Notes under the pieces: generated by a model | The model's input: the letters and a program-made list of their open reading frames with translations, nothing else | What the model was told of the DNA's origin: nothing | The model's database searches: none | Program-made: the position numbers and the translations under genes | Origin: Franzmannia pantelleriensis | GTDB lineage: Bacteria; Pseudomonadota; Gammaproteobacteria; Pseudomonadales; Halomonadaceae | DNA length: 64,000 nt | Assembly (NCBI RefSeq): GCF_900102875.1 | Contig: NZ_FNGH01000010.1 | Location: 1-64,000 of the forward strand | Reading direction: 5' to 3' | Part shown: one piece after another, positions 7,915 to 56,608 of the stretch | Position numbering within the stretch: position 1 is the stretch's first letter | Layout: each line of letters starts with the position of its first letter

Positions 7915-9189
7915 ATGAATCCCGCATACCGCCTACTGCAGGCCGCCAAGCGTAGCGAAATCGACAGCCTCCAACGGCTCGCCGCCACCTGCGAACTGGT
8001 CGGCGATATCAGCCGCTTCGTGCATGCGCTGCAAAAGGAGCGCGGTGCCTCGAACATCTATCTCACCTCCGGCGCCCAGCGCTTCAGCGAACGCCGCCTG
8101 GAGCGCATCAGTGACAGCCTCAAGCGCGAACAGGCGATTCGTGAACGCCTCGATGACTTGCCGCAGCACGCCGCCAGTAATGCCCGCCTGCTCAAGCGCA
8201 TCGCCTGCGTGTGGGCCGCCCTCGACGCCCTCCCCGCACTGCGCGAGGAGATCGAGGCGCTATCGATCAGCGCCGACGCTGCCACCCGCACCTATAATCG
8301 CCTGATCGGCGGGCTGCTGGCAGTTGTCTTCGATGCTGCCGATACCGCCGACGACCCCGATGTAACCCGCTCGCTGGTGGCCATTTTCCATTTCATGCAG
8401 GGCAAGGAGCTGGCCGGCCAGGAGCGCGCCTGTGGCGCCATCGGCTTCACCGCCGGTGAATTCGACAGCGCCCATCGCCAGCTGCTGCTTCAACTGATCG
8501 ACGCTCAGCAGCGCTGTTTCGATACCTTCAGCGAGTTTGCCAGCGACGCTGCCCGCGAGCACTGGCAACAGCAGCATGCCCCGCGCCGCCAGGATGGTAT
8601 CCAGCAACTACGCGAACAGGCCTGTACCGAGAGCACTGGCCAGCGCCTGGATCGCAGCCTTGGTGAAACCTGGTACGAGCTCACCACCGCACGGCTCGAC
8701 GCCATGCAGCAGGTCGAGGCGCAGTTGGCCGCTGAGCTTTCTCAGCTGTGCCACCGCAAGATCGAACAGGCACGCAGCGATATGCATGACCAGCAACAGC
8801 TGGATGCTTCGCTTCACGATGCCGTCGAGCAGTGCTCTACCTGTGAACAGCTGGTCGACCTATTTCCCCAGGAGGCCACCCACGAGCTAGGCCAGTTGAC
8901 CGCCACTGCGGTCGAGTCGCGGCTCAATCGCGGCCTGATCGACCTGATGCAGTCCCAGAACGCGCGACTCCAGCACATCAGCGACGAACTGGAAAGCACC
9001 CGTGAACTGTTGCGTGAGCGTAAGTTAATTGAGCGCGCCAAGGGCATGATCATGGAACACCAGCAGATGAGTGAAGACCAGGCCTATCGTTTCCTGCGCA
9101 AGGCCTCCATGGACCAGAGCAAGAGCATGGCCGAGATGGCCAAGACCATCATCGACCTGGCCGATATCCTGCAAAAGCGTCAGGCATGA
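7915..9189 (+). CDS. nasR: NasR-type nitrate-sensing transcription antiterminator (NIT + ANTAR)
   Basis: A 424-residue soluble protein. The N-terminal two thirds is helical and matches nitrate/nitrite-sensing NIT domains (RFVHALQKERGASNIYLTSG near residue 37). The last 60 residues form an ANTAR RNA-binding domain (LIERAKGMIMEHQQMSEDQAYRF, then AEMAKTIIDLADI). In Klebsiella, NasR binds nitrate and prevents termination in the leader of the nas operon. Here the gene directly precedes nrtA, whose leader has the matching two-hairpin plus terminator layout. AGGAGG lies upstream of the ATG. Confidence 0.9.
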   Translation: MNPAYRLLQAAKRSEIDSLQRLAATCELVGDISRFVHALQKERGASNIYLTSGAQRFSERRLERISDSLKREQAIRERLDDLPQHAASNARLLKRIACVWAALDALPALREEIEALSISADAATRTYNRLIGGLLAVVFDAADTADDPDVTRSLVAIFHFMQGKELAGQERACGAIGFTAGEFDSAHRQLLLQLIDAQQRCFDTFSEFASDAAREHWQQQHAPRRQDGIQQLREQACTESTGQRLDRSLGETWYELTTARLDAMQQVEAQLAAELSQLCHRKIEQARSDMHDQQQLDASLHDAVEQCSTCEQLVDLFPQEATHELGQLTATAVESRLNRGLIDLMQSQNARLQHISDELESTRELLRERKLIERAKGMIMEHQQMSEDQAYRFLRKASMDQSKSMAEMAKTIIDLADILQKRQA

Positions 9190-9314
9190 GGGCGCAAGTG
9201 GTGCGCTGCATTATCACCACGCACCAAGACAACGCCGTGCCGGTCATTGACCAGATAAACCTTCTCTTCGCAAGTCCTTGTTAACGAAAGCATCAGCACT
9301 ATTAGGCGGAAAAA

Positions 9315-9330
9315 TGGCACCCTAACTGCA
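9315..9330 (+). promoter_or_regulatory. Putative sigma-54 promoter of the nrtABD operon
   Basis: TGGCAC, CCTAA, CTGCA: a full -24 element and a near-consensus -12 element with the required ten-base spacing of GG and GC. It would start RNA near 9342, so that the whole attenuator lies in the leader. NtrC-type activation is expected from family knowledge; no NtrC sites were established. Confidence 0.72.
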
Positions 9331-9345
9331 ACGGTATTGGCGTAC

Positions 9346-9406
9346 GCTGAGTCAACGACGGTTCAGCTCCCAGGCAGTTTTCAATACCGGACAACGGCGT
9401 CTGATA
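9346..9406 (+). promoter_or_regulatory. ANTAR-responsive two-hairpin RNA motif in the nrtA leader
   Basis: Hairpin P1: stem GCTGAGTC/GGTTCAGC (8 pairs, two G-U) with loop AACGAC at 9354-9359. Hairpin P2: stem CGGAC/GTCTG with loop AACGGC at 9393-9398, extendable by two A-T pairs past one mismatch. Both loops have A at position 1 and G at position 4, the known requirement of ANTAR targets. P2 shares 9394-9405 with the 5' arm of the following terminator, so the two structures exclude each other. Confidence 0.8.
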
Positions 9407-9454
9407 AGAGTCATCCACCTAGTGGAGTGACTTGAATCAGGCGCCGTTTCTTTG
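9394..9454 (+). terminator. Regulated (attenuator) terminator of the nrt leader
   Basis: A long hairpin whose base is ACGGCGTCTGAT paired with ATCAGGCGCCGT (12 pairs, one G-U), continued by AGTCA/TGACT and TCCAC/GTGGA around a CTA loop, and followed by TTTCTTTG. It ends 15 bases before the nrtA start. Its left arm is also part of ANTAR hairpin P2, the classic antitermination switch. Confidence 0.8.
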
Positions 9455-9468
9455 TTTGGAGCCATCGC

Positions 9469-10773
9469 ATGAACAACAATAGATTCAAGGGCTACTCCCC
9501 TCAGCGTCGTCGCTTTTTGAAGAACTCCGCCACCATGATGGGTGGAGCTGCACTGCTCAGCAGCCTGCCGGTTAGCTGGGCTTTCGCCGACGGCAAGCCG
9601 GAAACCACCGCGGCCAAACTGGGCTTCATTGCCCTGACCGATGCCGCCCCGCTATTCGTCGCCGATGAAAAGGGCTTCTTCGCCAAGCACGGCATGACCG
9701 ATGTCGAGGTGCTCAAGCAGTCGTCCTGGGGCACGACCCGTGACAACCTGGTGCTAGGCTCGCAGCGCAACGGCATCGACGGTGCGCACATCCTCACGCC
9801 GATGCCCTACCTGATCAGTTCAGGAGCCGTCACGCCCAATAACCAGCCGGTGCCGATGAGCATCCTGGCACGCCTCAACCTCAACGGCCAATGCATCTCG
9901 GTAGGCAGTGATTACGCCGACCTGGAGGTGCAGCTCGATACCCGTGAGTTCGGACAGGCACTGGCCGAGAAGCGTGCCGGAGGTGACGAGGCCACTGCTG
10001 CCATGACCTTCCCTGGCGGCACCCACGACATGTGGATTCGTTACTGGATGGCGGCTGGCGGTATCGACCCCGATCGCGACGTATCGACCATCACGATTCC
10101 GCCTGCACAGATGGTCGCCAATATGCGCGTTGGCAGCATGGATACCTTCTGCGTCTGCGAGCCCTGGAACCATCAGCTGGTCAACCAGGGGATCGGCTAT
10201 ACCGCCAATACTACCGGTGAGCTTTGGAACGACCATCCGGAGAAAGCCTTCGCCATGCGCAGCGATTATGTGGAGGAAAATCCCAACGCCACCCAGGCAC
10301 TGCTGATGGCGATCATGGAAGCCCAGATGTGGTGCGAGGACCCGGCCAACCATGAAGAGATGGCGCAGATCTGCTCGCGTCGTCGCTGGATTCATGCCCC
10401 CTTTGATGACCTTATCGATCGCATTCAGGGCAATTTCGACTACGGAACAGGGCGCGTCATCGAGAACCATCCGCAGATGATGCGCTACTGGGACCGTCAT
10501 GCATCCTACCCCTTCAAGAGCCACGACCTGTGGTTCCTGACCGAGAACCAGCGCTGGGGCTACCTGCCGCAGGAGCTCGACACCGCCGCCCTGATCGAGC
10601 AGGTCAATCGCGAGGATCTATGGCGCCAGGCCGCCGACCGCCTCGGTGTGGCATCAAGCGATATTCCCGAGTCGACATCGCGTGGCGTCGAGACTCTGTT
10701 CGATGGCAAGACGTTCGACCCTGAGAATCCTCAGGCCTACCTCGACAGCCTCGAGATCAAGCGCCTGGCCTGA
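9469..10773 (+). CDS. nrtA: Nitrate ABC transporter substrate-binding protein
   Basis: A 434-residue periplasmic binding protein of the NrtA/CmpA/NasF family. The N-terminus has a twin-arginine motif (QRRRFLK, residues 12-18) and a hydrophobic stretch ending near AFA, so export by the Tat system is likely. Family features include DNLVLGSQRNGIDGAHILTPMPYL and the segment ending FCVCEPWNHQLV. It delivers nitrate to the NrtB/NrtD complex. The gene sits behind a sigma-54 element and an ANTAR attenuator and is followed 48 bases later by the permease. A related cytoplasmic relative, NasS, lies at 55586. Confidence 0.92.
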   Translation: MNNNRFKGYSPQRRRFLKNSATMMGGAALLSSLPVSWAFADGKPETTAAKLGFIALTDAAPLFVADEKGFFAKHGMTDVEVLKQSSWGTTRDNLVLGSQRNGIDGAHILTPMPYLISSGAVTPNNQPVPMSILARLNLNGQCISVGSDYADLEVQLDTREFGQALAEKRAGGDEATAAMTFPGGTHDMWIRYWMAAGGIDPDRDVSTITIPPAQMVANMRVGSMDTFCVCEPWNHQLVNQGIGYTANTTGELWNDHPEKAFAMRSDYVEENPNATQALLMAIMEAQMWCEDPANHEEMAQICSRRRWIHAPFDDLIDRIQGNFDYGTGRVIENHPQMMRYWDRHASYPFKSHDLWFLTENQRWGYLPQELDTAALIEQVNREDLWRQAADRLGVASSDIPESTSRGVETLFDGKTFDPENPQAYLDSLEIKRLA

Positions 10774-10821
10774 GCCATGTACCTCGCTCAACCACTGACC
10801 CACTGACACGGGAGAATCGCC

Positions 10822-11673
10822 ATGAGCGTTTCATCCAGCACTGACAGCCCCCGTCGCCCACTACCGGGGTGGTCGCCCAATCTTCACCGCCTTCGCGGCA
10901 CCTTGATCCATAATGTCCTGCCACCGGCGATCATCATTGCCGTGCTTGGGGCAATCTGGGAGATCCTCTGCTCGTCGCCCGGCGCAGCGCTGCCGCCTCC
11001 CTCCCAGGTGATCAGCGATACCTGGGAGCTGATCGTCAACCCGTTCTACGACTACGGCGGCAACGACAAGGGCATGGGCTGGCAGATCCTGGCCAGCCTC
11101 GAGCGGGTCGCCTACGGCTACCTGCTGGCGGTGGTGGCCGGCATCAGCCTCGGCGTGCTGGTCGGCCAGTCCACCTGGGCCATGCGCGGCCTCGACCCAG
11201 TGTTCCAGGTGCTGCGCACCGTGCCGCCGCTGGCCTGGCTACCGATCTCCCTGGCCGGCTTCCAGGACAGCACCCCGTCCGCCATCTTCGTGATCTTCAT
11301 CACCGCGATCTGGCCGATCATCATCAACACCTCGGTTGGGGTGCGTAATATCCCCGAGGATTACCGCAACGTGGCACGGGTGCTGCGCCTCAATGGCGCG
11401 GAGTATTTCACCCGCATCATGCTGCCCGCCGCTGCCCCCTATATCTTCTCCGGGCTGCGCATCGGCGTGGGACTGTCGTGGCTGGCCATCGTCGCCGCCG
11501 AGATGCTGATCGGCGGGGTGGGCATCGGCTTCTTCATCTGGGATGCCTGGAACGCCTCGATGATCAGCGACATCGTGCTGGCGCTGATCTATGTCGGCAT
11601 CGTCGGCTTCTTCCTCGATCGAATGGTCGCCTACATCGGCAACCGCGTCACCCGCGGCACCGCCAAGGGCTAA
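10822..11673 (+). CDS. nrtB: Nitrate ABC transporter permease
   Basis: A 283-residue integral membrane protein with about six helices and the binding-protein-dependent transport loop (EYFTRIMLPAAAPYIFSGLRIGVGLSW), which contacts the ATPase. It belongs to the NtrB/SsuC-like group. It lies between the binding protein and the ATPase in one operon; TAAGGAG at its end overlaps the ribosome site of the next gene. Nitrate rather than taurine or sulfonate as substrate is inferred from nrtA, nasR and the leader. Confidence 0.9.
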   Translation: MSVSSSTDSPRRPLPGWSPNLHRLRGTLIHNVLPPAIIIAVLGAIWEILCSSPGAALPPPSQVISDTWELIVNPFYDYGGNDKGMGWQILASLERVAYGYLLAVVAGISLGVLVGQSTWAMRGLDPVFQVLRTVPPLAWLPISLAGFQDSTPSAIFVIFITAIWPIIINTSVGVRNIPEDYRNVARVLRLNGAEYFTRIMLPAAAPYIFSGLRIGVGLSWLAIVAAEMLIGGVGIGFFIWDAWNASMISDIVLALIYVGIVGFFLDRMVAYIGNRVTRGTAKG

Positions 11674-11683
11674 GGAGATCCCC

Positions 11684-12523
11684 ATGACCAATCGCTATCT
11701 CAGCATCGAACAGGTCGACATGACCTTTCACACCAAAGGCGGCGCGAGCAACGTACTCAAGGGCATCGACCTGAGCGTCGCCCGTGGCGAGTACATCTCG
11801 ATCATCGGCCACTCCGGCTGCGGCAAGTCGACCCTGCTCAATATCATCGCCGGGTTGACCGAGTCGACCTCTGGCGCAGTGATCCTCGACGGCAAAGAGG
11901 TCAACGCCCCGGGCCCCGATCGCAGCGTGGTGTTCCAGAACCACTCGCTGCTGCCATGGTTGACCGTCTACGAGAACGTCGCGCTGGCGGTCAACAAGAC
12001 CTGTGCGCGCACCAAGAGCAAGGCCGAACGCCACGCCTGGATTCTCAAGAACCTCGAGATGGTCGGCATGAGCCATGCGCTGGACAAGCGCCCGGCGGAG
12101 ATCTCCGGCGGCATGAAGCAGCGTGTCGGTATCGCCCGGGCGCTGGCCATGGAACCCAAGGTACTGCTGCTCGACGAGCCCTTTGGGGCACTCGACGCCC
12201 TGACCCGTGCCCACCTCCAGGAGGAGGTGATGCGCATCCAGGATGAGCTCGGCAACACCGTGATCATGATCACCCACGACGTCGACGAGGCGGTGCTGCT
12301 CTCCGACCGCATCGTGATGCTGACCAACGGCCCCTCGGCGCGGATCGGTGAAGTGCTCGATATCGACCTGCCGCGGCCGCGCAATCGCATCACCCTGGCG
12401 GACGACCCGGCCTACAACCGCTACCGCCAGGAGGTGTTGCGCTTCCTGTATGAGAAGCAGCGCAAGGTCGAGCGGCTTGCCGAGCGGCGTGACAACCCCC
12501 AACCCACCAAGGCCCGTGCCTGA
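11684..12523 (+). CDS. nrtD: Nitrate ABC transporter ATP-binding protein
   Basis: A 279-residue ATPase with Walker A GHSGCGKST, Q-loop VFQNHSLLPWLTV, signature ISGGMKQRVGIARAL, Walker B VLLLDEPFGALDALT and switch histidine in MITHDVDEA. The start at 11684 (AAGGAGATCCCC ahead) is preferred to the longer frame from 11591, which would overlap nrtB by 80 bases and lacks family similarity. It has no fused binding-protein domain, so it is NrtD-like rather than cyanobacterial NrtC-like; it probably works as a homodimer with NrtB. Confidence 0.92.
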   Translation: MTNRYLSIEQVDMTFHTKGGASNVLKGIDLSVARGEYISIIGHSGCGKSTLLNIIAGLTESTSGAVILDGKEVNAPGPDRSVVFQNHSLLPWLTVYENVALAVNKTCARTKSKAERHAWILKNLEMVGMSHALDKRPAEISGGMKQRVGIARALAMEPKVLLLDEPFGALDALTRAHLQEEVMRIQDELGNTVIMITHDVDEAVLLSDRIVMLTNGPSARIGEVLDIDLPRPRNRITLADDPAYNRYRQEVLRFLYEKQRKVERLAERRDNPQPTKARA

Positions 12524-12548
12524 TCGCACCGGCGCCGGGCCAAGCGCA

Positions 12549-12582
12549 GCAACGCCCGCCACCTTAGGGTGGCGGGCGTTGC
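12549..12582 (+). terminator. Hairpin ending the nrt operon
   Basis: A perfect 15-bp stem (GCAACGCCCGCCACC and its complement) with a TTAG loop, 25 bases after nrtD. No T run follows, so its strength as a terminator is uncertain. Confidence 0.6.
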
Positions 12583-12673
12583 GTATAGGCACCATTGAAT
12601 CACGCTAAAGATGGCAAGGCGGCGATCATCGGACCATGCTCATAGCCATCGACCGTAATTTAGAGCCCGCCCA

Positions 12674-13771
12674 ATGACCGATGTCACCCCCGTCATGGTG
12701 TTCTATGACCCGCGCATGCTGGCCCACGAACCCAGTCCCGACGCTGCCTTCTTGCCTGGGCGCATGGATCAGCGTATCCGTCAGCTGCTCTCGGGTCTCG
12801 GAGTGCCCTGGAAATATCCGGAGCACCCGGGCCGGCTGACCGCCATCCAGCAACTGCTGGCGCTGACGCCTATCGAGGGTATCGACTTCGCCGACGGCAC
12901 GGCCGCCACCCGGGAACAGTTGGGCCGGGTCCATACCTCGTCATATCTCGAGCAGGTCTACAAGCTGCGCGGTCAGTATGCCTGGCTGGACGTGGATACC
13001 ACCGCCGTCTCGCCGGGCAGCGTCGAAGCCGCCGAGGTGGCCGCCGGTACCGCCATCGCCGCGGTGGAAACCGTGGTTACCGGGCGCAATCCCAGCGCCT
13101 TTGCCCTGGTCCGCCCACCGGGGCACCACGCCGAGCCAGTGCGTGCACGCGGCTTCTGTCTGTTCAACAACGTGGCCGTGGCCGCCGCCCACGCCAAGGC
13201 GGAGCTTGGCTGCCAACGCATCATGATTGTCGACTGGGATGCCCACCACGGCAACGGTACCCAGGACATCTTCTGGGCCGACCCCGACGTGCTGTTCATC
13301 GATCTGCACCGGGCCGCGCCCTTCTATCCCGGCTCCGGCAGTCTCGAGGAGGTTGGTGGAGGCCTCGGCGAAGGCACCACGGTCAATATCCCGATGCCGG
13401 CCAACGCCGGCGATGCCGCCTACCTGAAAGCCTTCGACAGCATCCTCGAGCCGGCCGCCGAGTGGTTCCAGCCCGACCTGATCCTGGTCTCGGCAGGCTT
13501 CGACCCCCACGCCCACGACCTGGCGCTGAATGTCTCCTACGGCGGCTTTGCCGCCATGACCCACCGCCTCAAACTGCTCGCCGAGCGGCACTGCGACGGT
13601 CGGTTGGTGTTCGTCCTCGAAGGTGGCTACAACCTGATCTCACTGTCACACGGGGTCAAAGCCGTGCTCGAGGTACTGGCCGGCGCCATTCCGCCACCGC
13701 CCGGCGAATTTGGCGTCGCCGAGGTCGAGGCCGCTGCCGCCTTTCACCGCAGTGCCTTTCTCGACCCGTGA
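12674..13771 (+). CDS. Histone-deacetylase-family zinc amidohydrolase
   Basis: A 365-residue arginase/deacetylase-fold enzyme. Characteristic blocks are PEHPGR, RVHTSSYL, RPPGHHAEP, DWDAHHGNGTQD, SAGFDPHAHD and EGGYN; the Asp and His of DWDAHHGN and the Asp of GFDPH are the zinc ligands and HH in PPGHHA the general base pair. Bacterial members remove acyl groups from acetylpolyamines, acetoin-related proteins or other amides, so the substrate here is not known. It is not clearly linked to the nitrate genes upstream (a hairpin separates them) and it converges with chrA. No good ribosome site is seen before the ATG. Confidence 0.85.
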   Translation: MTDVTPVMVFYDPRMLAHEPSPDAAFLPGRMDQRIRQLLSGLGVPWKYPEHPGRLTAIQQLLALTPIEGIDFADGTAATREQLGRVHTSSYLEQVYKLRGQYAWLDVDTTAVSPGSVEAAEVAAGTAIAAVETVVTGRNPSAFALVRPPGHHAEPVRARGFCLFNNVAVAAAHAKAELGCQRIMIVDWDAHHGNGTQDIFWADPDVLFIDLHRAAPFYPGSGSLEEVGGGLGEGTTVNIPMPANAGDAAYLKAFDSILEPAAEWFQPDLILVSAGFDPHAHDLALNVSYGGFAAMTHRLKLLAERHCDGRLVFVLEGGYNLISLSHGVKAVLEVLAGAIPPPPGEFGVAEVEAAAAFHRSAFLDP

Positions 13772-13798
13772 TCGCTTACCTCGCCGGTGTGCCACGTA

Positions 13799-15016
13799 TC
13801 ACGCCGGCAGGCCGGCGACCAGGCTGATCAGCACGCCGCCCAGCGCCATCACCGCCACCGCCGCCCAGGCCGGCAGTTTCCACACCGTGAGCAGCAGGAA
13901 ACCGCTCAGCGCCAGGGCGAACTCGTAGGAACCGATGATCGCGCTCGTCCATACCGGCTGATAGAGCGCGGCACCGAGGATCCCGACCACCGCGGCATTG
14001 GCCCCCCGCATCAACGACTGGGCGCTGGCCCACTGGCGAAAGCGGTTCCAGAACGGCAGCACCGCCACCAGCAGCAGCATGCCGGGCACGAAGATCGCCA
14101 GCAGCGCCAGGGTCGCGCCGATCAGGCCGTTAGGCACCGGCTCGAGCACCGCGCCGAGGTAGGCGGCGAAGGTGAAAAGTGGCCCCGGCACCGCCTGCGC
14201 TGCTCCGTAGCCGGCCAGGAACTCGTCCGGAGTGACCCAGCCAGACTGCACCACTTCGGCCTCGAGCAGCGGCAGCACCACGTGGCCGCCACCGAATACC
14301 AGCGCACCGGCGCGGTAGAACGCATCGAGCAGCGCCAGGGCCTGCGACGGCGTGGCCCAGGCCAGCAGCGGCAAGCCAACCAGCAGCAGTGCAAAGGCCA
14401 CCAGCGCGATGCCACCAGCGCGCCGGGTGACCGGGAAATGCACCTCGCTGACCGCTTGCTCCACCGCGGCGCGGCACAGCACCAGACCGGCCAGCCCCCC
14501 GGCAACGATCGCCACCACCTGCCCCAAGGGGCCGCTGACCATCACCACGATCAGCACCGCCGCCAGGCCGATGGCCGCGCGCTGTCGATCGGGGCAGAGG
14601 TTACGCGCCATGCCCCACACCGCATGGGCGACGATGGCCACCGCCGCGACCTTGAGGCCATGGATGATGCCGCTTCCCACCGGCCCCTCCATCACCGCCG
14701 CGCCGAAAACGAACAGGACCAGCACGATGGCCGACGGCAGGGTAAAGGCCAGCCACGCCATGGCCGCCCCCCAGGGGCCGGCGCGCATTAGGCCCAACGC
14801 GAAGCCGACCTGACTACTGGCCGGCCCGGGCAGAAACTGGCAGAGCGCCACCAGGTCGGCGTAATCCTTCTCCGACAGCCACTGGCGGCGGGCCACGAAC
14901 TCGCTGCGGAAATACCCCAGGTGGGCAATCGGCCCTCCGAAGGAGGTCAGCCCCAGCATCAGAAAGGCCTGGAACACTTCCTTGATGCGTCCCGCAGGAT
15001 AGGTCACTGCCGTCAT
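13799..15016 (-). CDS. chrA: Chromate transporter ChrA
   Basis: A 405-residue membrane protein of the long CHR family with two homologous halves. The first half carries LTSFGGPIAHLGYF near residue 23 and FLPGPASSQVGFALG; the second half carries GALVFGGGHVVLPLLEAEVV and AVPGPLFTFAAYLG. It exports chromate from the cytoplasm. It starts inside the last codons of the padR gene (4-base overlap), so the two are translated together. Confidence 0.92.
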   Translation of the reverse strand: MTAVTYPAGRIKEVFQAFLMLGLTSFGGPIAHLGYFRSEFVARRQWLSEKDYADLVALCQFLPGPASSQVGFALGLMRAGPWGAAMAWLAFTLPSAIVLVLFVFGAAVMEGPVGSGIIHGLKVAAVAIVAHAVWGMARNLCPDRQRAAIGLAAVLIVVMVSGPLGQVVAIVAGGLAGLVLCRAAVEQAVSEVHFPVTRRAGGIALVAFALLLVGLPLLAWATPSQALALLDAFYRAGALVFGGGHVVLPLLEAEVVQSGWVTPDEFLAGYGAAQAVPGPLFTFAAYLGAVLEPVPNGLIGATLALLAIFVPGMLLLVAVLPFWNRFRQWASAQSLMRGANAAVVGILGAALYQPVWTSAIIGSYEFALALSGFLLLTVWKLPAWAAVAVMALGGVLISLVAGLPA

Positions 15017-15366
15017 TCTCCTGACTCCTCGGTGTGTGGTGGGGCGTGCGTGCTATCAGTTATCTCCCCCTGACCCGCCTCGGCGCTGAACTCCTTGAGC
15101 TGACGTTTGGCGACCGCCAGCCCCTCCAGGCCCAGGGGCGTGGCGCGATACAGCTTGCGTCGCGTGCTGCCCTGCTGCTCCTGGCGTGACTGCAGGTAGC
15201 CCTTGCGCTCCATGGCATGCAGCATCGGATAGAGGGTGCCGGGGCTGAGCCGATAGCCGTGGCGTGCCAGCTCGTCGATCATCCACTGGCCGTAGATGTC
15301 GTGCTCGGCGGCGTGGTGCAACACGTGCAGGCGTACCAACCCCGATAGCAGATCATGATGTTCCAT
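15013..15366 (-). CDS. PadR-family transcriptional regulator
   Basis: A 117-residue winged-helix protein: HHDLLSGLVRLHVLHHAAEHDIYGQWMIDELA, then the PadR hallmark LSPGTLYPMLHAMERKGYL and a wing with GSTRRKLYR. The start at MEHHDLL (15366) fits family lengths; the longer frame would run through the operator. It overlaps chrA and very probably represses its own operon through the perfect 26-bp palindrome at 15391-15416. PadR/ChrA pairs are known in other proteobacteria; the inducing signal is presumably chromate but is not shown by the sequence. Confidence 0.88.
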   Translation of the reverse strand: MEHHDLLSGLVRLHVLHHAAEHDIYGQWMIDELARHGYRLSPGTLYPMLHAMERKGYLQSRQEQQGSTRRKLYRATPLGLEGLAVAKRQLKEFSAEAGQGEITDSTHAPPHTEESGE

Positions 15367-15390
15367 GTTGTTGACTCGCTGATGACAACT

Positions 15391-15416
15391 AACGAAAATC
15401 GATATCGATTTTCGTT
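15391..15416. promoter_or_regulatory. Perfect 26-bp palindrome, probable PadR operator
   Basis: Half-site AACGAAAATCGAT followed directly by its exact complement. It lies 24 bases before padR and 53 bases before the divergent rhodanese gene, with the ATCGAT core common in PadR operators. Binding could control both directions. Confidence 0.75.
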
Positions 15417-15469
15417 TTAGCAAGCCTGCTCGTGCAGGGCAAGCCCAATCCGATCAGAGGAGTCATGCA

Positions 15470-15820: not shown

Positions 15821-15919
15821 GCGCGGCCTGGCAAGGCAAGCGACCCTCGCGTCCTCTCGCACAGGCCAGGGCCCCCTCGAACAAGGTACACTCGCGGCAA
15901 ATGCCGTGGATCGCTTGTC

Positions 15920-18332: not shown

Positions 18333-18337
18333 CCATC

Positions 18338-49313: not shown

Positions 49314-49434
49314 GGTAGCTCCTTGGCGGGCTTGTTGTTGTCGTGTTGCATTCGGGGTAATCCCACTTAGCAGAATGGGTCGAGACGTTATTTTTGTATA
49401 TTGAATAGTTTTTAACTTGTGTTTTACTTTCTAA

Positions 49435-50334
49435 ATGAATCCGAGCATCAAGCAGCTGCGCGCCTTCGTTGCCGCGGCGCAGTCTTCCAGCCTGGCCGAA
49501 GCCAGCGAGCGCATTCACCTCTCCCAGCCGGCGATCTCCATCGCCCTGCGCAAGCTGGAGGAGACGGTAGGCGGTGCCCTGTTCTCGCGAGCCACGCGCC
49601 AGCTCAGCCTGACGCCTGAAGGTGCGGCCTTTCTGCCAGTGGCGATACGGCTGCTGCATGACTGGTCGGAAGCCTTCGAGGACCTGGAGGAGCGCTTTTC
49701 CAAGCAGCGCGGCAAGGTGACGGTCGCCGCCCTCCCCACCCTGGCCGCAGGCCTCCTTCCTGCCATTATCGCGACCTTTCACACCCGATACCCGCGTATC
49801 AACCTGAGCCTGCACGACGTGCTGGCCGAACAGGTCAGTCAGATGGTGCGTGAGGGCCGGGCTGACCTAGGCCTATCAGTTGTTCCACACGACGCCGAGG
49901 AGCTGACTTTCACGCCGGTATTGGAAGATCGCTATGTCGCTGTCTGCCCAAACGGACATCCCCTCCTGGAGCAGCAAAGTGTCGAGTGGAAGCAACTGGC
50001 CGGCTACCCGTTCATCGGCATCAACCGACTATCCAGCTCGCGCCAGGACATCGACCGCATCATGGCTGACGTCGGTGCCCCACTGGATATTCTCTGCGAT
50101 GCCAGTCAGATCGCCACGGTAGGCCGCATGGTGGCCGCCGGGCTGGGCATCAGCGTACTGCCGCAGCTGAGCTTTCGGCAGATCGCCACTGGGGGCATCG
50201 CCTACCGGCCGCTGCTAGCGCCCGACGTCAAGCGGCCACTGGGTATCGTCATGCGACGTCGCCACGCGCCATCGGCGGCTGCCGCGGCGCTAAAGTCCCT
50301 GATCATCGAACACGTCGTCGAGGGGTGGGGGTGA
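49435..50334 (+). CDS. LysR-family regulator
   Basis: A 299-residue protein with the LysR helix-turn-helix (LRAFVAAAQSSSLAEASERIHLSQPAISIALRKLE) and an effector domain starting near residue 95. It is divergent from the TAXI-TRAP/AtuA operon and is the natural candidate to regulate it. The intergenic gap (49314-49434) is AT rich, but no clear operator was picked out. Confidence 0.85.
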   Translation: MNPSIKQLRAFVAAAQSSSLAEASERIHLSQPAISIALRKLEETVGGALFSRATRQLSLTPEGAAFLPVAIRLLHDWSEAFEDLEERFSKQRGKVTVAALPTLAAGLLPAIIATFHTRYPRINLSLHDVLAEQVSQMVREGRADLGLSVVPHDAEELTFTPVLEDRYVAVCPNGHPLLEQQSVEWKQLAGYPFIGINRLSSSRQDIDRIMADVGAPLDILCDASQIATVGRMVAAGLGISVLPQLSFRQIATGGIAYRPLLAPDVKRPLGIVMRRRHAPSAAAAALKSLIIEHVVEGWG

Positions 50335-50408
50335 AGGGCGTTGGCCGGCCCTTGTGCCTCTAGCGGGTGACTGGTCAAAATGGTTGGCTGCCACCATCGA
50401 GAGACCAT

Positions 50409-50900
50409 ATGGACATTACCCCGATTACCCGTGATGACTTCCGGGCCTTCTGGCCAGCCTTCCAGGCCATCGTCAAGGCGCAGGAGACCTACGCCTTCGA
50501 CCCGGACATGGATTTCGATACTGCCTGGCGACTGTGGTGCGAGCTTCCGCAGTTCACCTTTGTCGCCAAGCAGGACGGCGAGCTGCTGGGGTCCTACTAC
50601 CTCAAGCCCAATGCGGCCGGGCCCGGTGACCATATCTGCAACTGCGGCTATATGGTCACCCCCCAAGCCCGCGGCAAGGGCGTGGCCCGCGCCATGTGCG
50701 AGCACTCCCAGCGGGTTGCCATCAAGGCCGGCTACCTGGGCATGCAGTTCAATGCCGTGGTGGCCACCAACGAGGTGGCGATCCGCCTATGGCAGACGCT
50801 GGGCTTCGAGATCATCGGCACCGTGCCCGGCGGCTACCGCCACCGCGAGCTGGGGCTGGTGGATACCCGCATCATGTATAAGCGCCTGACCAAGGCCTGA
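50409..50900 (+). CDS. GNAT-family N-acetyltransferase
   Basis: A 163-residue acetyltransferase. The acetyl-CoA binding loop is VTPQARGKGVARAMCEHS, and NAVVATNEVAIRLWQTLGFEIIGTVPGGY is the standard fourth motif. The substrate is unknown. ATG at 50409 is preferred to the start 14 codons earlier because of length and GAGAG upstream. Confidence 0.85.
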   Translation: MDITPITRDDFRAFWPAFQAIVKAQETYAFDPDMDFDTAWRLWCELPQFTFVAKQDGELLGSYYLKPNAAGPGDHICNCGYMVTPQARGKGVARAMCEHSQRVAIKAGYLGMQFNAVVATNEVAIRLWQTLGFEIIGTVPGGYRHRELGLVDTRIMYKRLTKA

Positions 50901-50941
50901 CCTTCGCTCGCCGACTTTTCAGACGTAGAGCATGCTTTGGA

Positions 50942-51841
50942 TTAAATGGTTAAGTTTGACGCGTGTTGCTGCACGGCGGGGCTGGTCTCGACCATGCGCA
51001 CCACGCTGCCGACCACGATCAGGCACGGCGAGGGCAGCGGCTTTTCTGCCAGCTGTGCCGGCATATCCGCCAGGGTACCCGTTAGCGCCTGCTGCTCGGG
51101 CTTGCTGGCGTTGGCCACCAGCATGATCGGCCACTCGCCGGGCAGGCCGGCGTCGCGCAGCCCGACACAGATGGCCGCCACCTTGGAGAGCCCCATATAG
51201 AACACCAGGGTCTCGTCGCGGCGCGCCAGCGACTGCCAGTCCGGGGTACCGTCCTCGCGGCATAGCTGAGCGGTGACGAAACGCAGCTGCTGGGCGTGGC
51301 CGCGGTCGGTGAGCGGAATGCCCATGCTCGCCGCGGCCGCCGAGGCGGCGGTAATGCCGGGGACGATCTCGGCGGGCACATCGGCCTCGGCCAGGGCGGC
51401 AAGCTCCTCGCCCATACGCCCGAACACGCCGGGGTCGCCACCCTTGAGGCGCACCACCGACTTGCCCTCGGCGACCAGGCGCACCATCAAGGCGCCTATC
51501 TCGGCCTGGGGCACGCTGTGGTGGCCGCGCGCCTTGCCCACGTAGTAGCGCTCGCTGGCAGCGCCGATCAGCGCCAGCACGTCATCGCCGACCAGGCGGT
51601 CGTAGACCACCGCATCGGCCTGCTGCAGCAGCCGCGCGGCCTTCAGCGTCAGCAGCTCGACGTCGCCGCTGCCGGCGCCGACCAGATAGACCTTGCCCGC
51701 GCGACACTCGCCGCGCAGTGGCATGCCCGGAGCGGTAGCGCCAGGCGCTGCATCACCGCTCAAGGAGAGGTGGCGGGTGATGCTCTGGCTGAGACGGGCC
51801 AAGGCCTCAGGCCACTTGGGTATCAGGGGTCGGCTTGGCAT
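50942..51841 (-). CDS. cobA: Uroporphyrinogen-III C-methyltransferase (SUMT)
   Basis: A 299-residue enzyme that methylates uroporphyrinogen III twice with S-adenosylmethionine to give precorrin-2, the precursor of siroheme for NirB. Motifs are VYLVGAGSGDVELLTLKAARLLQQADAVVYDRLV, VVRLKGGDPGVFGR, VPGITAASAAAA and a final GSVV. It lacks the CysG dehydrogenase/chelatase domain. It begins inside the end of the nitrate reductase gene (about 35-base overlap), so it is co-expressed with it. Confidence 0.92.
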   Translation of the reverse strand: MPSRPLIPKWPEALARLSQSITRHLSLSGDAAPGATAPGMPLRGECRAGKVYLVGAGSGDVELLTLKAARLLQQADAVVYDRLVGDDVLALIGAASERYYVGKARGHHSVPQAEIGALMVRLVAEGKSVVRLKGGDPGVFGRMGEELAALAEADVPAEIVPGITAASAAAASMGIPLTDRGHAQQLRFVTAQLCREDGTPDWQSLARRDETLVFYMGLSKVAAICVGLRDAGLPGEWPIMLVANASKPEQQALTGTLADMPAQLAEKPLPSPCLIVVGSVVRMVETSPAVQQHASNLTI

Positions 51842-54542
51842 GCGCCCGCTCCTCTTCAATCAGGGATTTGAGTTCTGGAATACAGCTGCCGCACTGGGTC
51901 CCGCAGGCGAGCCGGGCGCCCAGCGCCTCGACGCTGGTGTCGCCGTCGCGAATGGCAGAAACGATGGCCTTCTGGCCGACCTGGTGGCAGCTGCAGATGG
52001 TGGCGCCGCTATCGGCAGCGCCATCGTCGCACCCGGCCAGCAGCCGGCGGCGATGGGTGTCGCTCAGCTCGCTATCGTTGAAGCGCTGCTCCAGCCAGGC
52101 CAGCCCGGGCAGCTCGGCGGGCGGGCCGATCATCGCCCACCAGCACAGCCGGCCATCCTTCACCGCCGCGGCGCGCAACCGGCCGTCGCCGGCATCCTCG
52201 CACCACAGCGTCGCCGCCTCCGGCAGCCAGGCCGCCAAGCGCTCCAGCCAGTCGTGCTCAACCTGCCCGCTGGCCAGCTGCCAGCGCTGGCAGCCGCGCA
52301 TGGGAATGCGTGCCCAGTAGTCGCTCTCGCACCAGGGGGCGGCGTCGCTGAGCGCTTCGCTGACCAATAGCGTGGCCTCCCAGGCAGTGCTCAGCGGCGC
52401 CAGGGCCACGGCGCCGTGCTTGGACTCGGGTTGCCCGGAGAGCGGGTCGGTGTAACCGCTGATCAAGGCGCCGCTGCGCGCCTGCTTGGTGAAGCGGTCG
52501 GTCCAGTGCATCGGCACGAACACCTCGCCGCGTCGCTGGGCATTGGCGACCCGCACCCGGGCGCGATATTCGCCGGCCTCGCTGGTCAGTACCGCCAGGC
52601 GCTGGTCGGCGACGCCGTAGGCCAGCGCATCGTCGGGGTGTACTTCGATAAACGGCTCGGCGCGATGATTCATCAGGCGCGGGGCGCGCGCGGTGCGGGT
52701 CATGGTATGCCACTGGTCGCGAATCCGCCCGGTATTGAGACGCAGCGGACGCGCCGCACTCAAGCGCTGCTCGGGGCCCCGCGGCGTGATCGGTACCAGC
52801 CGGGCCAGGCCGTTATCGGTGGCGAACTGGCCATCCTCGAACAGCCGCGCGGTGCCATGGGGCGCCTGCGCGGTGACCGGCCACTGGATCGGCGCCAAGG
52901 CATCGTAGGCAGCGCGGTCGAGGCCCGCGAGGCCGGAGATATCGAACAGCCGCCGGCCGGTATCCGCGACGTTCTCGAACCCGGAGAGCCGGGCGTGTTC
53001 GTCGAAGATCTCGCTGGGGTGGGTATAGGCGAAGGCCTCGCCATAGCCCAGTCGCTTGGCGACTTCGCACATGATCCACCAGTCGTGGCGGGCCTCCCCG
53101 GGGGGCGGCAGCAGGCCGCGCTGTCGCGAGATGCGGCGCTCGGAGTTGGTCACGGTGCCGTCCTTCTCCGACCAACTCGAGGCCGGCAGCACGATGTCGG
53201 CGTAGGCCAGCAGGTCGGTGTCGGTGACGCACTCGGAGACGATCACCAGCGGGCACTTGGCCAGCGCCGCACGCACCCGCGCGGCATCCGGCAGGCTCAC
53301 CGCCGGGTTGGTGGCCATCACCCACAGGGCCTGGACCTCGCCGCGCTCGATGGCCTCGAACAGCTCCACCGCCTTGTGGCCGGGGGCATCGGGCAGGGTC
53401 GGCACCAGCCTGTCGGTGGTCCAGAAGCGGGTCACGAGGTCGATGGCACCGGGCGTATGGTAATCCATGTGGGCGGCCAGCTGGTTGGCCAAGCCGCCCA
53501 CCTCGCGCCCGCCCATGGCATTGGGCTGGCCGGTGATCGAGAACGGCCCCGCCCCGGGCAGGCCCAGCTTACCGCCGGCCAGATGGCAGTTGATGATGGC
53601 GTTGCACTTGTCGGTGCCGCTAGAGGACTGGTTGACGCCCTGGGAGTAGAGGGTGACCACGTGCAGCTGGCTGGCGAACCAGTAGTAGAAGGTCTCCAGC
53701 GCCTCGGCGTCGAGGTCGCAGTCGGCGGCCACGGACTCGAGGTCGAAAGCATCCTCTCGAGCCGCGGCCAGGGCTTCGTCGAAACCCTGAGTGTGGCGCT
53801 CCAGGTAGACGCGATCCAGCTTGCCCTTGGCCGCCATCCAGCTCAGCAGGCCATTGAACAGACGCGCGTCGCTGCCGGGCTTGAGGCCCAGATAGAGATC
53901 GGCGATCTCGCAGCTGTCGGTGACCCGCGGGTCGATCACCACCACCCGCATCAGCGGGTTGCGGGTCTTGGCCACCTTGAGGCGCTGATAGAGCACCGGA
54001 TGGTTCCAGGCCAGGTTGGAGCCGACCAGCACCACCAGTTCGGCCTCCTCGAGGTCCTCGTAGCTGCACGGCACCGCATCGGCGCCAAAGGCGCGCTTGT
54101 AGCCGACCACCGCCGAGGCCATGCACAGCCGTGAGTTGGTATCCAGATGCGGCGTGCCGAGAAATCCCTTGAACAGTTTGTTGGCGACATAGTAGTCCTC
54201 GGTCAGCAGTTGGCCGGAGAGGTAGGCCGCCACCGCTTCGTTACCCTGTGCCTGGCGGATCGACGTCAAGCGGCTGGCCACCGCCTCGAGTGCCGTGTCC
54301 CAGTCGACCTCGGTGCCATCGACCCGCGGGCGCATCAGGCGGCCCTGCTGCCCCAGGGTCTCGTGCAGCGCCGAGCCCTTGACGCACAGGCGGCCATAGT
54401 TGGCGGGATGCTGGCGATCGCCCTCCACCGCCGTCAGGGCGCCGTTTTCGAGCGTCGCGGTCACGCCGCACCCTACCCCGCAGTAGGGGCAGGTGGTTTG
54501 CGCCTGACAGGTCGTCGACGCTGACTCATCGGCCTGGTACAT
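51807..54542 (-). CDS. nasA: Assimilatory nitrate reductase, catalytic subunit
   Basis: A 911-residue cytoplasmic molybdopterin enzyme that reduces nitrate to nitrite. The N-terminal 4Fe-4S site is C18, C21, C25, C53 (CPYCGVGC..RLCVKG). Molybdopterin guanine dinucleotide blocks follow, including LCMASAVVGYKRAFG, GSNLAWNHPVLYQR, GQPNAMGGREVGG and the C-terminal EPFIEVHPDDA. The end carries a BFD-like 2Fe-2S domain (C850, C852, C884, C887), so it may take electrons through it from the FAD protein at 56879. The start at 54542 has GAGGAG seven bases upstream. The leader before it contains a sigma-54 element and an ANTAR attenuator. The name follows Klebsiella; Pseudomonas and Paracoccus call it nasC. 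Confidence 0.95.
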   Translation of the reverse strand: MYQADESASTTCQAQTTCPYCGVGCGVTATLENGALTAVEGDRQHPANYGRLCVKGSALHETLGQQGRLMRPRVDGTEVDWDTALEAVASRLTSIRQAQGNEAVAAYLSGQLLTEDYYVANKLFKGFLGTPHLDTNSRLCMASAVVGYKRAFGADAVPCSYEDLEEAELVVLVGSNLAWNHPVLYQRLKVAKTRNPLMRVVVIDPRVTDSCEIADLYLGLKPGSDARLFNGLLSWMAAKGKLDRVYLERHTQGFDEALAAAREDAFDLESVAADCDLDAEALETFYYWFASQLHVVTLYSQGVNQSSSGTDKCNAIINCHLAGGKLGLPGAGPFSITGQPNAMGGREVGGLANQLAAHMDYHTPGAIDLVTRFWTTDRLVPTLPDAPGHKAVELFEAIERGEVQALWVMATNPAVSLPDAARVRAALAKCPLVIVSECVTDTDLLAYADIVLPASSWSEKDGTVTNSERRISRQRGLLPPPGEARHDWWIMCEVAKRLGYGEAFAYTHPSEIFDEHARLSGFENVADTGRRLFDISGLAGLDRAAYDALAPIQWPVTAQAPHGTARLFEDGQFATDNGLARLVPITPRGPEQRLSAARPLRLNTGRIRDQWHTMTRTARAPRLMNHRAEPFIEVHPDDALAYGVADQRLAVLTSEAGEYRARVRVANAQRRGEVFVPMHWTDRFTKQARSGALISGYTDPLSGQPESKHGAVALAPLSTAWEATLLVSEALSDAAPWCESDYWARIPMRGCQRWQLASGQVEHDWLERLAAWLPEAATLWCEDAGDGRLRAAAVKDGRLCWWAMIGPPAELPGLAWLEQRFNDSELSDTHRRRLLAGCDDGAADSGATICSCHQVGQKAIVSAIRDGDTSVEALGARLACGTQCGSCIPELKSLIEEERAHAKPTPDTQVA

Positions 54543-54588
54543 GGTAACTCCTCGTTTACCGCCGCCCAGTGCGAGTGGGCTACAACGC

Positions 54589-54632
54589 AAAAACGTCCAC
54601 TACCGGCATCTCGGGATGCCAGCAGTGGACGT
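54589..54632 (-). terminator. Regulated (attenuator) terminator of the nasA leader
   Basis: On the minus strand ACGTCCACT and GGCAT arms pair with ATGCC and AGTGGACGT around a CCCGAG loop (positions 54593-54632), followed by TTTT. It ends 47 bases before the nasA start. Its 5' arm overlaps ANTAR hairpin P2. Confidence 0.8.
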
Positions 54633-54663
54633 CGTCGTCGGATGAGGGCCGGCGTTGGCCCTC
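54628..54663 (-). promoter_or_regulatory. ANTAR-responsive two-hairpin RNA motif in the nasA leader
   Basis: Read on the minus strand. P1 (54644-54663): perfect 7-bp stem GAGGGCC/GGCCCTC with loop AACGCC. P2 (54628-54639): GAC-GACGAC-GTC, only three pairs and with G instead of A at loop position 1, but with the same GAC/GTC closing and G4, C6 as the other two P2 hairpins. P2 shares bases with the terminator arm. Confidence 0.65.
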
Positions 54664-54686
54664 GGCAATTGTCTATGCTGTAGTTA

Positions 54687-54702
54687 AGCAAGCGTCGTGC
54701 CA
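54687..54702 (-). promoter_or_regulatory. Sigma-54 promoter of nasA
   Basis: On the minus strand TGGCAC, GACGC, TTGCT: an exact match to the -24/-12 consensus TGGCAC-N5-TTGCW. It lies 145 bases before nasA, just upstream of the attenuator. Confidence 0.8.
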
Positions 54703-54995
54703 GCCCGGCCCGGCCTCGCCGCCACGGCCTGACGGGAGGGGCCTGGCGGCATGCTGCCGACGGTGTGAGTCGCGTCCAGCCGGCGGGGTATCTCGCACCA
54801 CGGCATTGCGCTCGACCACGGATTTGCACCAGCATAATGCAGTGCAGCGTGCCCTTGGCGGGTAACTGAGCCCAACGCCGCTACGGCGTTATGCGCCCAA
54901 CGACAGTGCATTGGCCACCGGCATGCGCCACCGTGGAACACAAATTGCACAGCCAAGGTACATGCGCATCAACCACTGCCATACGAGCCCACACC

Positions 54996-55589
54996 ATGCC
55001 CCCAGCGCTTGATGTTCTACTGGTCGACGATGAAGAGGTGCGCGCCGCCATGGTCGAGGAGGCGCTCACACACGAAGGCCATCGCGTGATCTGCCACCTC
55101 AAGAGCCCCGCCAGCCTCAATGACATGGTGGCGCGGCATCAGCCCGACGTGGTGATCATCGACATGGAATCGCCGGACCGCGATACGCTCGACAGCATGA
55201 CCCAGCTCAATCGCGAGAACCCACGGCCGGTGGTGTTCTTCGCCGACCAGCACGACCCCGACACCATGCAGTCGGCGCTCAAAGCCGGGGTCAGCGCCTA
55301 TGTGGTGGACGGTCTGGTACAGGGGCGGGTCAAGCCGATCATCGAGGTGGCCATCGCCCGTTTCGAGGCCTTCCAGTCGATGCGCCAGGAGCTCGACCGC
55401 ACTCGCACCCAACTCACCGAGCGCAAGCGCATCGAGCGCGCCAAGGGCCTGCTCATGCGTCACCAGAGCTGTGATGAAGAGCAGGCCTACCAAATGCTGC
55501 GCAAGCTGGCCATGGACCGCGGCCAGCGCATCGCCGAGGTCGCCACGAGCGTCATCGACATCCTCGAACGTCTGGAGAAGGGCCTATGA
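54996..55589 (+). CDS. nasT: ANTAR-domain antiterminator NasT
   Basis: A 197-residue protein: a receiver-like domain (residues 5-120, with DD at 11-12 and D56 in IIDMESPD but no conserved Lys near the end) and a C-terminal ANTAR domain (RIERAKGLLMRHQSCDEEQAYQMLRKLA, residues 145-172). In other bacteria NasT binds the nas leader to allow read-through and is held inactive by NasS when nitrate is absent. The start at MPPALDV is chosen; the upstream 35 codons of the longer frame are not family-like. It overlaps nasS by four bases. The gap 54703-54995 shows no clear promoter. Confidence 0.9.
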   Translation: MPPALDVLLVDDEEVRAAMVEEALTHEGHRVICHLKSPASLNDMVARHQPDVVIIDMESPDRDTLDSMTQLNRENPRPVVFFADQHDPDTMQSALKAGVSAYVVDGLVQGRVKPIIEVAIARFEAFQSMRQELDRTRTQLTERKRIERAKGLLMRHQSCDEEQAYQMLRKLAMDRGQRIAEVATSVIDILERLEKGL

Positions 55590-56608
55590 ACACGCTGCCC
55601 AAGGCCGAGCTGACACGCCTGCAGCTAGGTTTCATCCCGTTGCTCGACTGCGTCCTGCTGGTGGTCGCCCGCGAGCGCGGCCTGTTCGCCGACCAGGGCC
55701 TGGACGTGACGCTGTCACGACAGAACGCCTGGTCGACCCTGCGCGACAAGGTCGCCGCCGGGCTGCTCGACGGCGCCCATATGCTGGCGCCCATGCCGCT
55801 GGCCATGAGCCTCGGGTTGGGCAGGGCGCCCTGCGACACCCTGGCACCGATCACCCTAAGCCGTAACGGCAATTCCATCGTGCTGTCGCGGGAACTGGCC
55901 GATGCCTGCGGGGCACGCCTCGGCGATGACCCGGCCGACAGTGCCAAGGGGCTGGCAGGCTACCTACCCAGCGCCAGCCGGCAAACACGCCTCGGAATGG
56001 TCTACCCCCACTCCTGCCAGCACTATCAGCTGCGCCACTGGCTGGGCCTCGGCGGCATCGACGCCGACCAGGCCGTGGAACTGGTGGCCCTGCCGCCACC
56101 GCGCATGGTCGACGCCATGCAACAGGGCAAGATCGACGGCTTCTGCGTTGGCGAACCCTGGGGCAGTCTTGCCGAATCTCGACAGGCCGGCCGCATCGTC
56201 GCCAGCGGCGCCCAGCTGTGGCCGGAACAGCCCGAGAAGGTGCTCGGCGTGACCCACTCTTGGGCGAATCGCTACCCAGCGACCCTGGCTCGGCTGGTTC
56301 AGGCACTGATCGCCGCCAGCGACTGGCTAGCCGAGTCGCCGGCCAACCGCCTGCAGGCGCGTGACTGGCTGGCCCTGCCACCCTACCTCGACCGCTCGGT
56401 GGGCCATCTCGAGACCCTGCCCATCGACGCCCCGCCGCTGCACCAGCGCCTGTGCGGCCGGGACGTGCTGCGTCCCGACCCCGCCTTCGCCGAGCTGCTC
56501 GCCGAACAGATCGACCAGCAACTGCGCGACCAGGGGCAGCAGCTCGACCTCTCCACCCTCGGCGCGTGTTACAGCGCCGTGCATTTCGATCGCGCCCTGC
56601 ACCACTGA
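55586..56608 (+). CDS. nasS: Nitrate sensor NasS
   Basis: A 340-residue protein related to NrtA but without a signal peptide, so cytoplasmic. The segments LQLGFIPLLDCVLLVVARERGLFADQGLDV, DGAHMLAPMPLAMSLG and GFCVGEPWG correspond to nitrate-binding regions of NrtA. Family knowledge: NasS binds NasT and lets it go when nitrate or nitrite is bound. Coupled to nasT by ATGA overlap. Confidence 0.9.
   Translation: MNTLPKAELTRLQLGFIPLLDCVLLVVARERGLFADQGLDVTLSRQNAWSTLRDKVAAGLLDGAHMLAPMPLAMSLGLGRAPCDTLAPITLSRNGNSIVLSRELADACGARLGDDPADSAKGLAGYLPSASRQTRLGMVYPHSCQHYQLRHWLGLGGIDADQAVELVALPPPRMVDAMQQGKIDGFCVGEPWGSLAESRQAGRIVASGAQLWPEQPEKVLGVTHSWANRYPATLARLVQALIAASDWLAESPANRLQARDWLALPPYLDRSVGHLETLPIDAPPLHQRLCGRDVLRPDPAFAELLAEQIDQQLRDQGQQLDLSTLGACYSAVHFDRALHH

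Follow-up and report, generated by a model that had tools for sequence, protein, structure and literature searches.

Two ANTAR regulators and four leaders, one of them a candidate structured RNA before narK, in the nitrate-assimilation genes of Franzmannia pantelleriensis

How might two nitrate-responsive ANTAR regulators, NasR and NasT, share the leader RNAs of a single bacterium? The question is raised by a 64,000-nt stretch of Franzmannia pantelleriensis (assembly GCF_900102875.1, contig NZ_FNGH01000010.1, positions 1-64,000, from a genome of 4.4 Mb), hereafter the window. It carries narK, nasR and nrtABC in that order and, 39 kb further on, nasA on the minus strand, nasT-nasS and nasB-nirB-nirD (Table 1). 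The original prediction held that NasR and NasS-NasT are both encoded here with three similar target RNAs, the leaders of nrt, nasA and nasB, which the two systems either divide between them or control together at different nitrate levels. Our analysis makes it on balance probable that these genes form a nitrate-assimilation regulon with two ANTAR regulators and four leaders, in which labour would be divided by history, protein amount and signal, and in which the leader of narK would not act by intrinsic termination.

In such a regulon, NasR would run the nrt module and NasT would run nasA and nasB-nirBD, each regulator being physically able to bind the leaders of the other. The division would be set by history, by protein amount and by signal (sensing through the NIT domain as against release from NasS), and not by an RNA code. 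At the nrt, nasA and nasB leaders, hexaloops, once bound, would keep the terminator's 5′ arm from pairing, a case of antitermination. The fourth leader would drive narK, and perhaps nasR, with no such terminator in this lineage; its ANTAR hexaloop would lie behind a conserved core whose 3′ strand could pair just before the ribosome-binding site.

Both regulators are present as predicted. NasR combines NIT and ANTAR domains within a single protein and matches the nitrate regulatory protein structure 4AKK (4.1e-54). NasT has a receiver and an ANTAR domain, adjoins a NasS of the nitrate-binding-protein type, and matches the EutV structure 6WSH (2.9e-23). An ANTAR search of the whole genome (E<=0.001) returned these two proteins as its sole matches.

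The three predicted leaders are also real, and a sigma54-type -24/-12 site lies upstream of each. Stems, loops with A at position 1 and G at position 4 (A1 and G4), and overlap of the second hexaloop (P2) with the terminator are all found in the nrt leader, and in the nasB leader with three hexaloops. The additional nasB hexaloop, AUCGCG (56741-56758, plus strand), precedes the usual two and is identical in 5/5 genus members. The nasA leader of the window departs from this build, its P2 loop being GACGAC, without A1, and the same loop consensus that had been assigned to all three leaders therefore stands for nrt and nasB only. Among the four genus-mates fetched, three (G012, G035 and G049) keep A1 and have the complete nasA build; the position is G in the window (54631-54636, minus strand) and in G060, a change that may weaken the nasA response in these two organisms. 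A strict motif was run over both strands of the window. It asks for stems of at least 4 bp (P1) and 3 bp (P2), for A1, G4 and a C-G closing pair, and for a P2 that overlaps a terminator; it matched only nrt and nasB, and matched in 0/20 dinucleotide shuffles. Genome-wide, a sigma54-like pattern gave 87 matches versus 28 for the reversed pattern. Two of the 84 distinct sites scanned pass the strict motif, and three do so when A1 of P2 is waived, these being the same three leaders; no further leader was found at the 84 sites by a scan that missed narK, so that promoters whose first base is not T may escape it.

We compared 66 leaders from genomes with NasR only, 39 from genomes with NasT only and 24 from genomes with both (the dual genomes). 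A P2 loop was found in 62/66 NasR-only and 27/39 NasT-only leaders. The commonest, AACGAC, is the same in both classes (27 and 13 leaders, respectively), and four loops common to both account for 53/62 and 19/27. The two proteins of the window are similarly alike at the eleven RNA-contact positions defined for EutV (PMC8934654): NasR has RKRKEYRMDSS and NasT RKRKEYRMDGR, with 9/11 identical, including the four residues that touch G4. Given this overlap in loops and the identical G4 contacts, either protein should be capable of binding any leader. P2 loop sequence was rejected as a discriminator because NasR-only and NasT-only loops overlap too much, and the RNA code does not appear to separate the two regulators clearly; history, protein amount and signal are the more likely basis for a division of labour. 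The cross-talk suggested by the original prediction is plausible on these grounds.

It is unlikely that RNA specificity divides the leaders, so that NasR reads nrt only and NasT reads nasA and nasB only, the discrimination being made by loop position 5, by stem or spacing, and by ANTAR-loop residues 175 and 177. Within the eight dual genomes the sequences would fit such a code, the nrt P2 loop being AACGGC in 8/8 and the nas P2 loop ANNGAC in the 14/14 found (16 leaders), while residue 177 is S in the eight NasR and R in the eight NasT proteins. Outside them, however, A at position 5 occurs in 31/62 NasR-only and in 21/27 NasT-only P2 loops, so that each class meets both kinds; the residues contacting G4 do not differ; and for SELEX (systematic evolution of ligands by exponential enrichment) with Klebsiella oxytoca NasR the text of the paper mentions just the C-G closing pair, A1 and G4 (PMC7496416).

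Evidence for a division by history comes from a survey of 151 genomes of the family, in which co-occurrence tests ignore phylogeny and NasR counts leave out NIT-only matches (G005, G020, G029, G040) and the fragment in G023 and include the split gene of G136. NasT was found in 63/151 genomes, at >=80% identity in 35 and at 38-44% in 28, and NasR with its ANTAR domain in 49/151. NrtA of the window type (>=74% identity) occurs in 11/151 genomes, and NasR in 11/11 of these; a NrtA relative at 37% identity (G000:C22) was put aside as a different transporter. Within the 35 genomes that carry the NasT type of the window (its own included), NasR and nrtABC are found in the same eight and neither in the other 27.

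One of these, G023, has no whole nasR or nrtABC and carries a fused remnant 16 kb from nasT. This scar (L240:7849-8196) is an open frame in which NasR residues 1-78 (72%) are joined to NrtCD 262-300 (90%), as would be left by a deletion that removed the remainder of nasR together with the nrt leader and the greater part of nrtABC. The narK gene of G023 lies 4.5 kb from the scar with another transporter gene between, so that gene order has also been rearranged. NasT is the only window-type nitrate ANTAR regulator of G023, which has one further ANTAR match, of 40 bits. In two genomes with NasR and no NasT (G069 and G120), nrt and nasR are on different contigs and the build of the nrt leader is kept, with P2 as in the window and differing P1 loops. 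Together, the co-occurrence, the scar and these two leaders tie the nrt leader to NasR, which seems to be the dedicated regulator of the nrt module. The specialisation proposed from gene order is thereby supported as far as inheritance goes, by the 8/8 pairing of NasR with nrtABC among the 35 genomes and by the scar. These same data make it improbable that both regulators act on all leaders at different nitrate thresholds or nitrogen states, giving redundancy or a graded response; the common loop repertoire and contact residues favour such an arrangement, but it leaves unexplained why NasR is kept in the eight nrtABC genomes with no whole gene in the 27 others, and how the scar arose.

NasR and NasT occur together in 8/151 family genomes, against 20.4 expected if they were independent, a near-exclusion in keeping with the earlier statement that most bacteria with nitrate attenuation are described with one of these regulators. 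The survey of relatives that had been called for also covered 293 genomes of the order, with NasR in 35, NasT in 90 and both in four. One of the four is the genome of the window; the other three (G290, G371 and G409; L241-L246) belong to a single different family, and in them NasR and NasT are unlinked, lying far apart or on different contigs. Weaker second ANTAR matches in G003, G043, G139, G023, G037 and G132 (L037-L042) did not match NasR or NasT at more than 80 bits. A tree of 27 NasR proteins, in which the dual label needs two changes and forms a single group in 19% of 200 bootstrap trees, left a single origin of NasR in the dual genomes undecided.

The co-occurrence itself is already known: NasST and NasR have been described together in a 'Halomonas desiderata group' as 'possible dual regulation', with strains MCCC 1A11081 and MCCC 1A11058 named, and as otherwise almost mutually exclusive (PMC8014003). 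This near-exclusivity, there and in our family survey, would agree with standard antitermination alone, in which NasR and NasT are interchangeable remnants of gene exchange and the core before narK is a fixed relic. We regard this as distinctly doubtful, since 5/5 sampled genus members keep both genes, and since 28 core positions show no mismatch in 36/44 narK upstream regions, the other eight being core-less.

That core belongs to the fourth leader, overlooked so far, which lies upstream of narK and of nasR; in it a sigma54-type promoter is followed by a structured core and then by an ANTAR hexaloop. It was missed by the sigma54-like pattern because its promoter begins with C (cGGCA). The core consensus, GRCGURGACCAGGCY...RGYACGAGUGCGUC, is followed by a hexaloop, mostly ccttc-AANGNN-gaagg, whose loop begins 13 nt past the core in 80/103 leaders. 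An A1/G4 hexaloop is present in 103/116 distinct narK leaders (a set of 117 that counts one organism twice, L132 and L353); in the remaining 13, seven of them from Chromohalobacter, it is lost or degenerate and the core is kept. The 44 upstream regions mentioned above were collected by NarK similarity, and the eight without a core (NasR-only groups g4, g8 and g15) have 9-11 mismatches. With one hexaloop, and no terminator in the strict scan, the narK leader of the window is not of the dual-hexaloop kind.

Covariation supports the core as a structured leader. Of 107 distinct leaders, 98 entered alignment A2; the other nine (L082-L086, L088, L132, L282 and L336), in which no clear hexaloop was seen, were dropped before model R1 was made. 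In these 98, the proposed structure pairs 98.8% of cells versus 95.7% when shuffled, and two-sided changes occur at six pairs versus 2.4, values reached in 0/500 shuffles in both cases. Two of the six pairs are in helix 2, four in the hexaloop and none in helix 1, whose invariance is partly by construction: the 107 leaders were collected by an expression that fixes most letters of the core, those of helix 1 in all but two columns. The 44 upstream regions gathered by NarK similarity are free of this constraint.

A search of the genome collection with the pattern GACCAGGCN{2,28}GYACGAGTGCGTC gave at least 120 matches in at least 118 loci. Among the 120 matches listed, 105 lie on the same strand as narK and 57-118 nt upstream of it; the other 15 comprise one before nrtA (L319), two cut by the end of the locus and 12 that are chance-like. 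Not part of the pattern itself, the 5′ half of helix 1 is present in 108 of the matches listed (short by one base in L351) and in 0/12 of the chance-like ones, and in 67 of a set of 69 narK-linked matches a sigma54-like site lies no more than 80 nt upstream of the core. It is very improbable that the core, instead of forming an RNA structure, serves as a DNA operator or encodes a leader peptide: its long invariant stretches could be protein-binding DNA, and helix 1 has no two-sided changes, but the loop between its two halves varies widely in length, helix 2 covaries (columns 17-40: CG 50, UA 41), the core keeps its orientation and its distance to narK among the matches listed, and leaders vary in length by a base or two, which would break any reading frame.

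Among the matches listed, the core has a narrow range: Halomonadaceae, a few Ectothiorhodospiraceae-like genomes (Arhodomonas, Alkalilimnicola and two metagenome-assembled genomes, MAGs, or draft genomes) and one Oceanococcus MAG. R1 matches 83/151 family genomes, one time in each: 63/63 with NasT, 19/41 with NasR alone and 1/47 others. The last, G090 (L385), has the narK RNA with no NasR or NasT match in the family surveys, and its hexaloop stem has one mismatch. In 369 genomes of the class, R1 gave four matches: two family members, Arhodomonas, and one of 31.7 bits that is probably due to chance, with no narK in its 3-kb locus. On 34 loci besides the window it gave one weak match (E 0.5). 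Halomonas ramblicola (L305) and H. organivorans (L365) each have two neighbouring narK genes with a core copy of their own, and in an Ectothiorhodospiraceae MAG (L319:4491-4561) core and hexaloop stand before nrtA, downstream of NasR, and not before narK. A scan of window positions 6200-6470 against Rfam 15 (4227 models, E<=10) returned only a long non-coding RNA fragment (E 2.4), and at Rfam gathering scores no match was found in the window or in loci L240, L074, L099 and L096. A literature search of titles and abstract openings found no published narK-leader RNA or riboswitch. Published collections of candidate RNAs may include a motif named after narK.

How might this leader act? Each of the eight core-less narK leaders has two hexaloops, and in 6/8, as judged by eye, the second is followed by a T-rich stretch, whereas TTTT occurs between core and start codon in just 18/117 core-bearing leaders, so that an intrinsic terminator is not general among the latter. 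Two kinds of pairing exceed shuffled controls and may point to translational control: that of the 5′ arm of the hexaloop with the Shine-Dalgarno region (-5.24 versus -3.01 kcal/mol, 103 related leaders) and that of the 3′ strand of the core, whose longest complement just before the start codon is 5.05 versus 4.03 (117 related leaders). Control of narK is thus probably exerted at translation or by another route that does not involve intrinsic termination. Since the core is kept where the hexaloop is lost, it should have a role of its own, independent of ANTAR proteins. Tentatively, and with more doubt than confidence, we propose that the core could be an undescribed ligand-binding RNA (for nitrate, nitrite or another nitrogen-status signal), forming with the hexaloop a two-input switch on narK; if so, the switch would reach nasR too wherever nasR follows narK. 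In the window the gap between the two genes is 116 bp. If narK and nasR form one transcript, nasR could be under the ANTAR-responsive narK leader, and NasT could then feed NasR, or NasR feed itself.

Several observations weigh against the regulon as we describe it. The bias at P2 loop position 5 (p 0.019, uncorrected) and the difference between NasR and NasT at EutV positions 175 and 177 (S/S versus G/R), which are backbone contacts, make some preference possible. By one and the same rule, P1 was found beside P2 in 35/66 NasR-only, 17/39 NasT-only and 19/24 dual leaders, and no P2 was found in 4/66, 12/39 and 2/24, respectively, so a second hexaloop often seems weak or absent. The link between nrt and NasR involves few independent lineages (g1, part of g20, two of g11 and one of g3), and G120 has a further ANTAR match of 42 bits. 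In three genomes of other families (G209, G394 and G399), NasT stands beside an nrtABC of another type (NrtA 30-32%), so that nrt is not NasR's by nature. For narK, the relatedness of the leaders weakens the excess of both pairings over shuffles, and the window leader, folded as a single sequence, does not form the consensus (z -1.31). The pairing probability of the narK-leader hexaloop is 0.00-0.03 in the eight dual-genome leaders listed, compared with 0.91-1.0 in four g11 leaders listed and a mean of 0.65 over 103.

Each half of the system resembles a known one. As in the NasR/nasF leader of K. oxytoca M5al, the protein combines NIT with ANTAR and the leader has C-G-closed hexaloops with A1/G4 and a P2 overlapping the terminator (PMC3369931, PMC7496416); unlike there, NasR here has narK and nrtABC as neighbours, and the genome also encodes NasST. 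The receiver-ANTAR NasT, with NasS beside nas/nir genes, is like NasS-NasT of Paracoccus and Bradyrhizobium (PMC3795266, PMC5424462, PMC6759348), which differ from the window in that here a second ANTAR regulator adjoins and sigma54-type sites precede all four leaders. The loop code is also that of the dual hexaloops of Enterococcus faecalis EutV/eut (PMC8934654). EutV acts at terminators, whereas none was found for the narK hexaloop in this lineage. Like families in Rfam 15, the narK core is built as a structured leader with two helices around a conserved internal loop, although it matches none of them. The co-occurrence is the same as in the 'H. desiderata group'; the leaders, their proposed assignment to regulators, the loop code, the nrt linkage, the scar and the narK RNA are given here and not in the available text of PMC8014003. 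What is new is the largely common loop repertoire with identical G4 contacts, the apparent NasR-nrt module with the G023 scar and the fourth leader.

Table 1 Features of the window that bear on the two regulators and their leaders. MFE z, z-score of the leader minimum free energy versus shuffles; MFS, major facilitator superfamily; ABC, ATP-binding cassette.
Feature	Position	Strand	Remarks
Sigma54-type promoter of narK, cGGCAATATATTTGCt	6311..6326	+	
narK-leader core: helix 1 GACGUG/UGCGUC, internal loop GACCAG and ACGAG, variable helix 2	6346..6380	+	model R1 78.6 bits
ANTAR-type hexaloop of narK leader, ccttc-AACGGC-gaagg	6388..6403	+	
narK, nitrate/nitrite MFS transporter	6446..7798	+	TIGR00886 314.8 bits (cut-off 311.7)
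Perfect hairpin without U-tract, narK-nasR gap	7834..7865	+	
nasR	7915..9189	+	NIT PF08376 173 bits; ANTAR PF03861 68.6 bits
Sigma54-type promoter, nrt leader	9315..9330	+	
nrt leader P1, gctgagtc-AACGAC-ggttcagc	9346..9367	+	identical P1 loop in 8/8 dual genomes
nrt leader P2, cggac-AACGGC-gtctg	9388..9403	+	overlaps terminator
Intrinsic terminator, nrt leader	9393..9453	+	MFE z -5.24
nrtA, ntrB, nrtCD, nitrate ABC importer	9469..12523	+	permease/ATPase: TIGR01183, TIGR01184 above cut-off; NrtA: PF13379
nasA, molybdopterin oxidoreductase of the assimilatory nitrate reductase kind	51807..54542	-	C-terminal Fer2_BFD
Intrinsic terminator, nasA leader	54589..54633	-	MFE z -7.73
nasA leader P2, gac-GACGAC-gtc	54628..54639	-	A1 replaced by G; overlaps terminator
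nasA leader P1, gagggcc-AACGCC-ggccctc	54644..54663	-	
Sigma54-type promoter, nasA leader	54687..54702	-	
nasT	54996..55589	+	receiver + ANTAR; start is the ATG aligned with relatives
nasS	55586..56608	+	NMT1_2 domain; follows nasT
Sigma54-type promoter, nasB-nirBD leader	56702..56717	+	
nasB leader, hexaloops AUCGCG, AAAGGC, ACAGAC	56741..56799	+	last overlaps terminator
Intrinsic terminator, nasB leader	56792..56840	+	MFE z -7.31
nasB-like FAD reductase, nirB, nirD	56879..61078	+	

Of the genes themselves, nasA scores below the cut-off of the NasC model, and its start is probably at 54542 and not at the mechanical TTG at 54590, judging from aligned starts in relatives. Genes for reductive pyrimidine breakdown lie before narK-nasR (360-5447, plus strand): a carbon-nitrogen hydrolase, a dihydropyrimidinase, a glutamate-synthase-like reductase and PreA.

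Depending on the genus, nasA, nasB and narK leaders face NasR, NasT or, in a few cases, both, and their loops are mostly alike, which provides a natural experiment on the RNA specificity of ANTAR proteins, and the nrt importer and NasR appear tied together as a module. The narK leader adds a conserved RNA without a match in Rfam 15 before a nitrate transporter, with a hexaloop and mostly no visible terminator. A single hexaloop is the minimal ANTAR site, and the narK leader offers a case for a question that PMC8934654 raises, that of ANTAR targets with one hexaloop. A framing of two regulators and three leaders omits this RNA, which could place nasR itself under ANTAR control.

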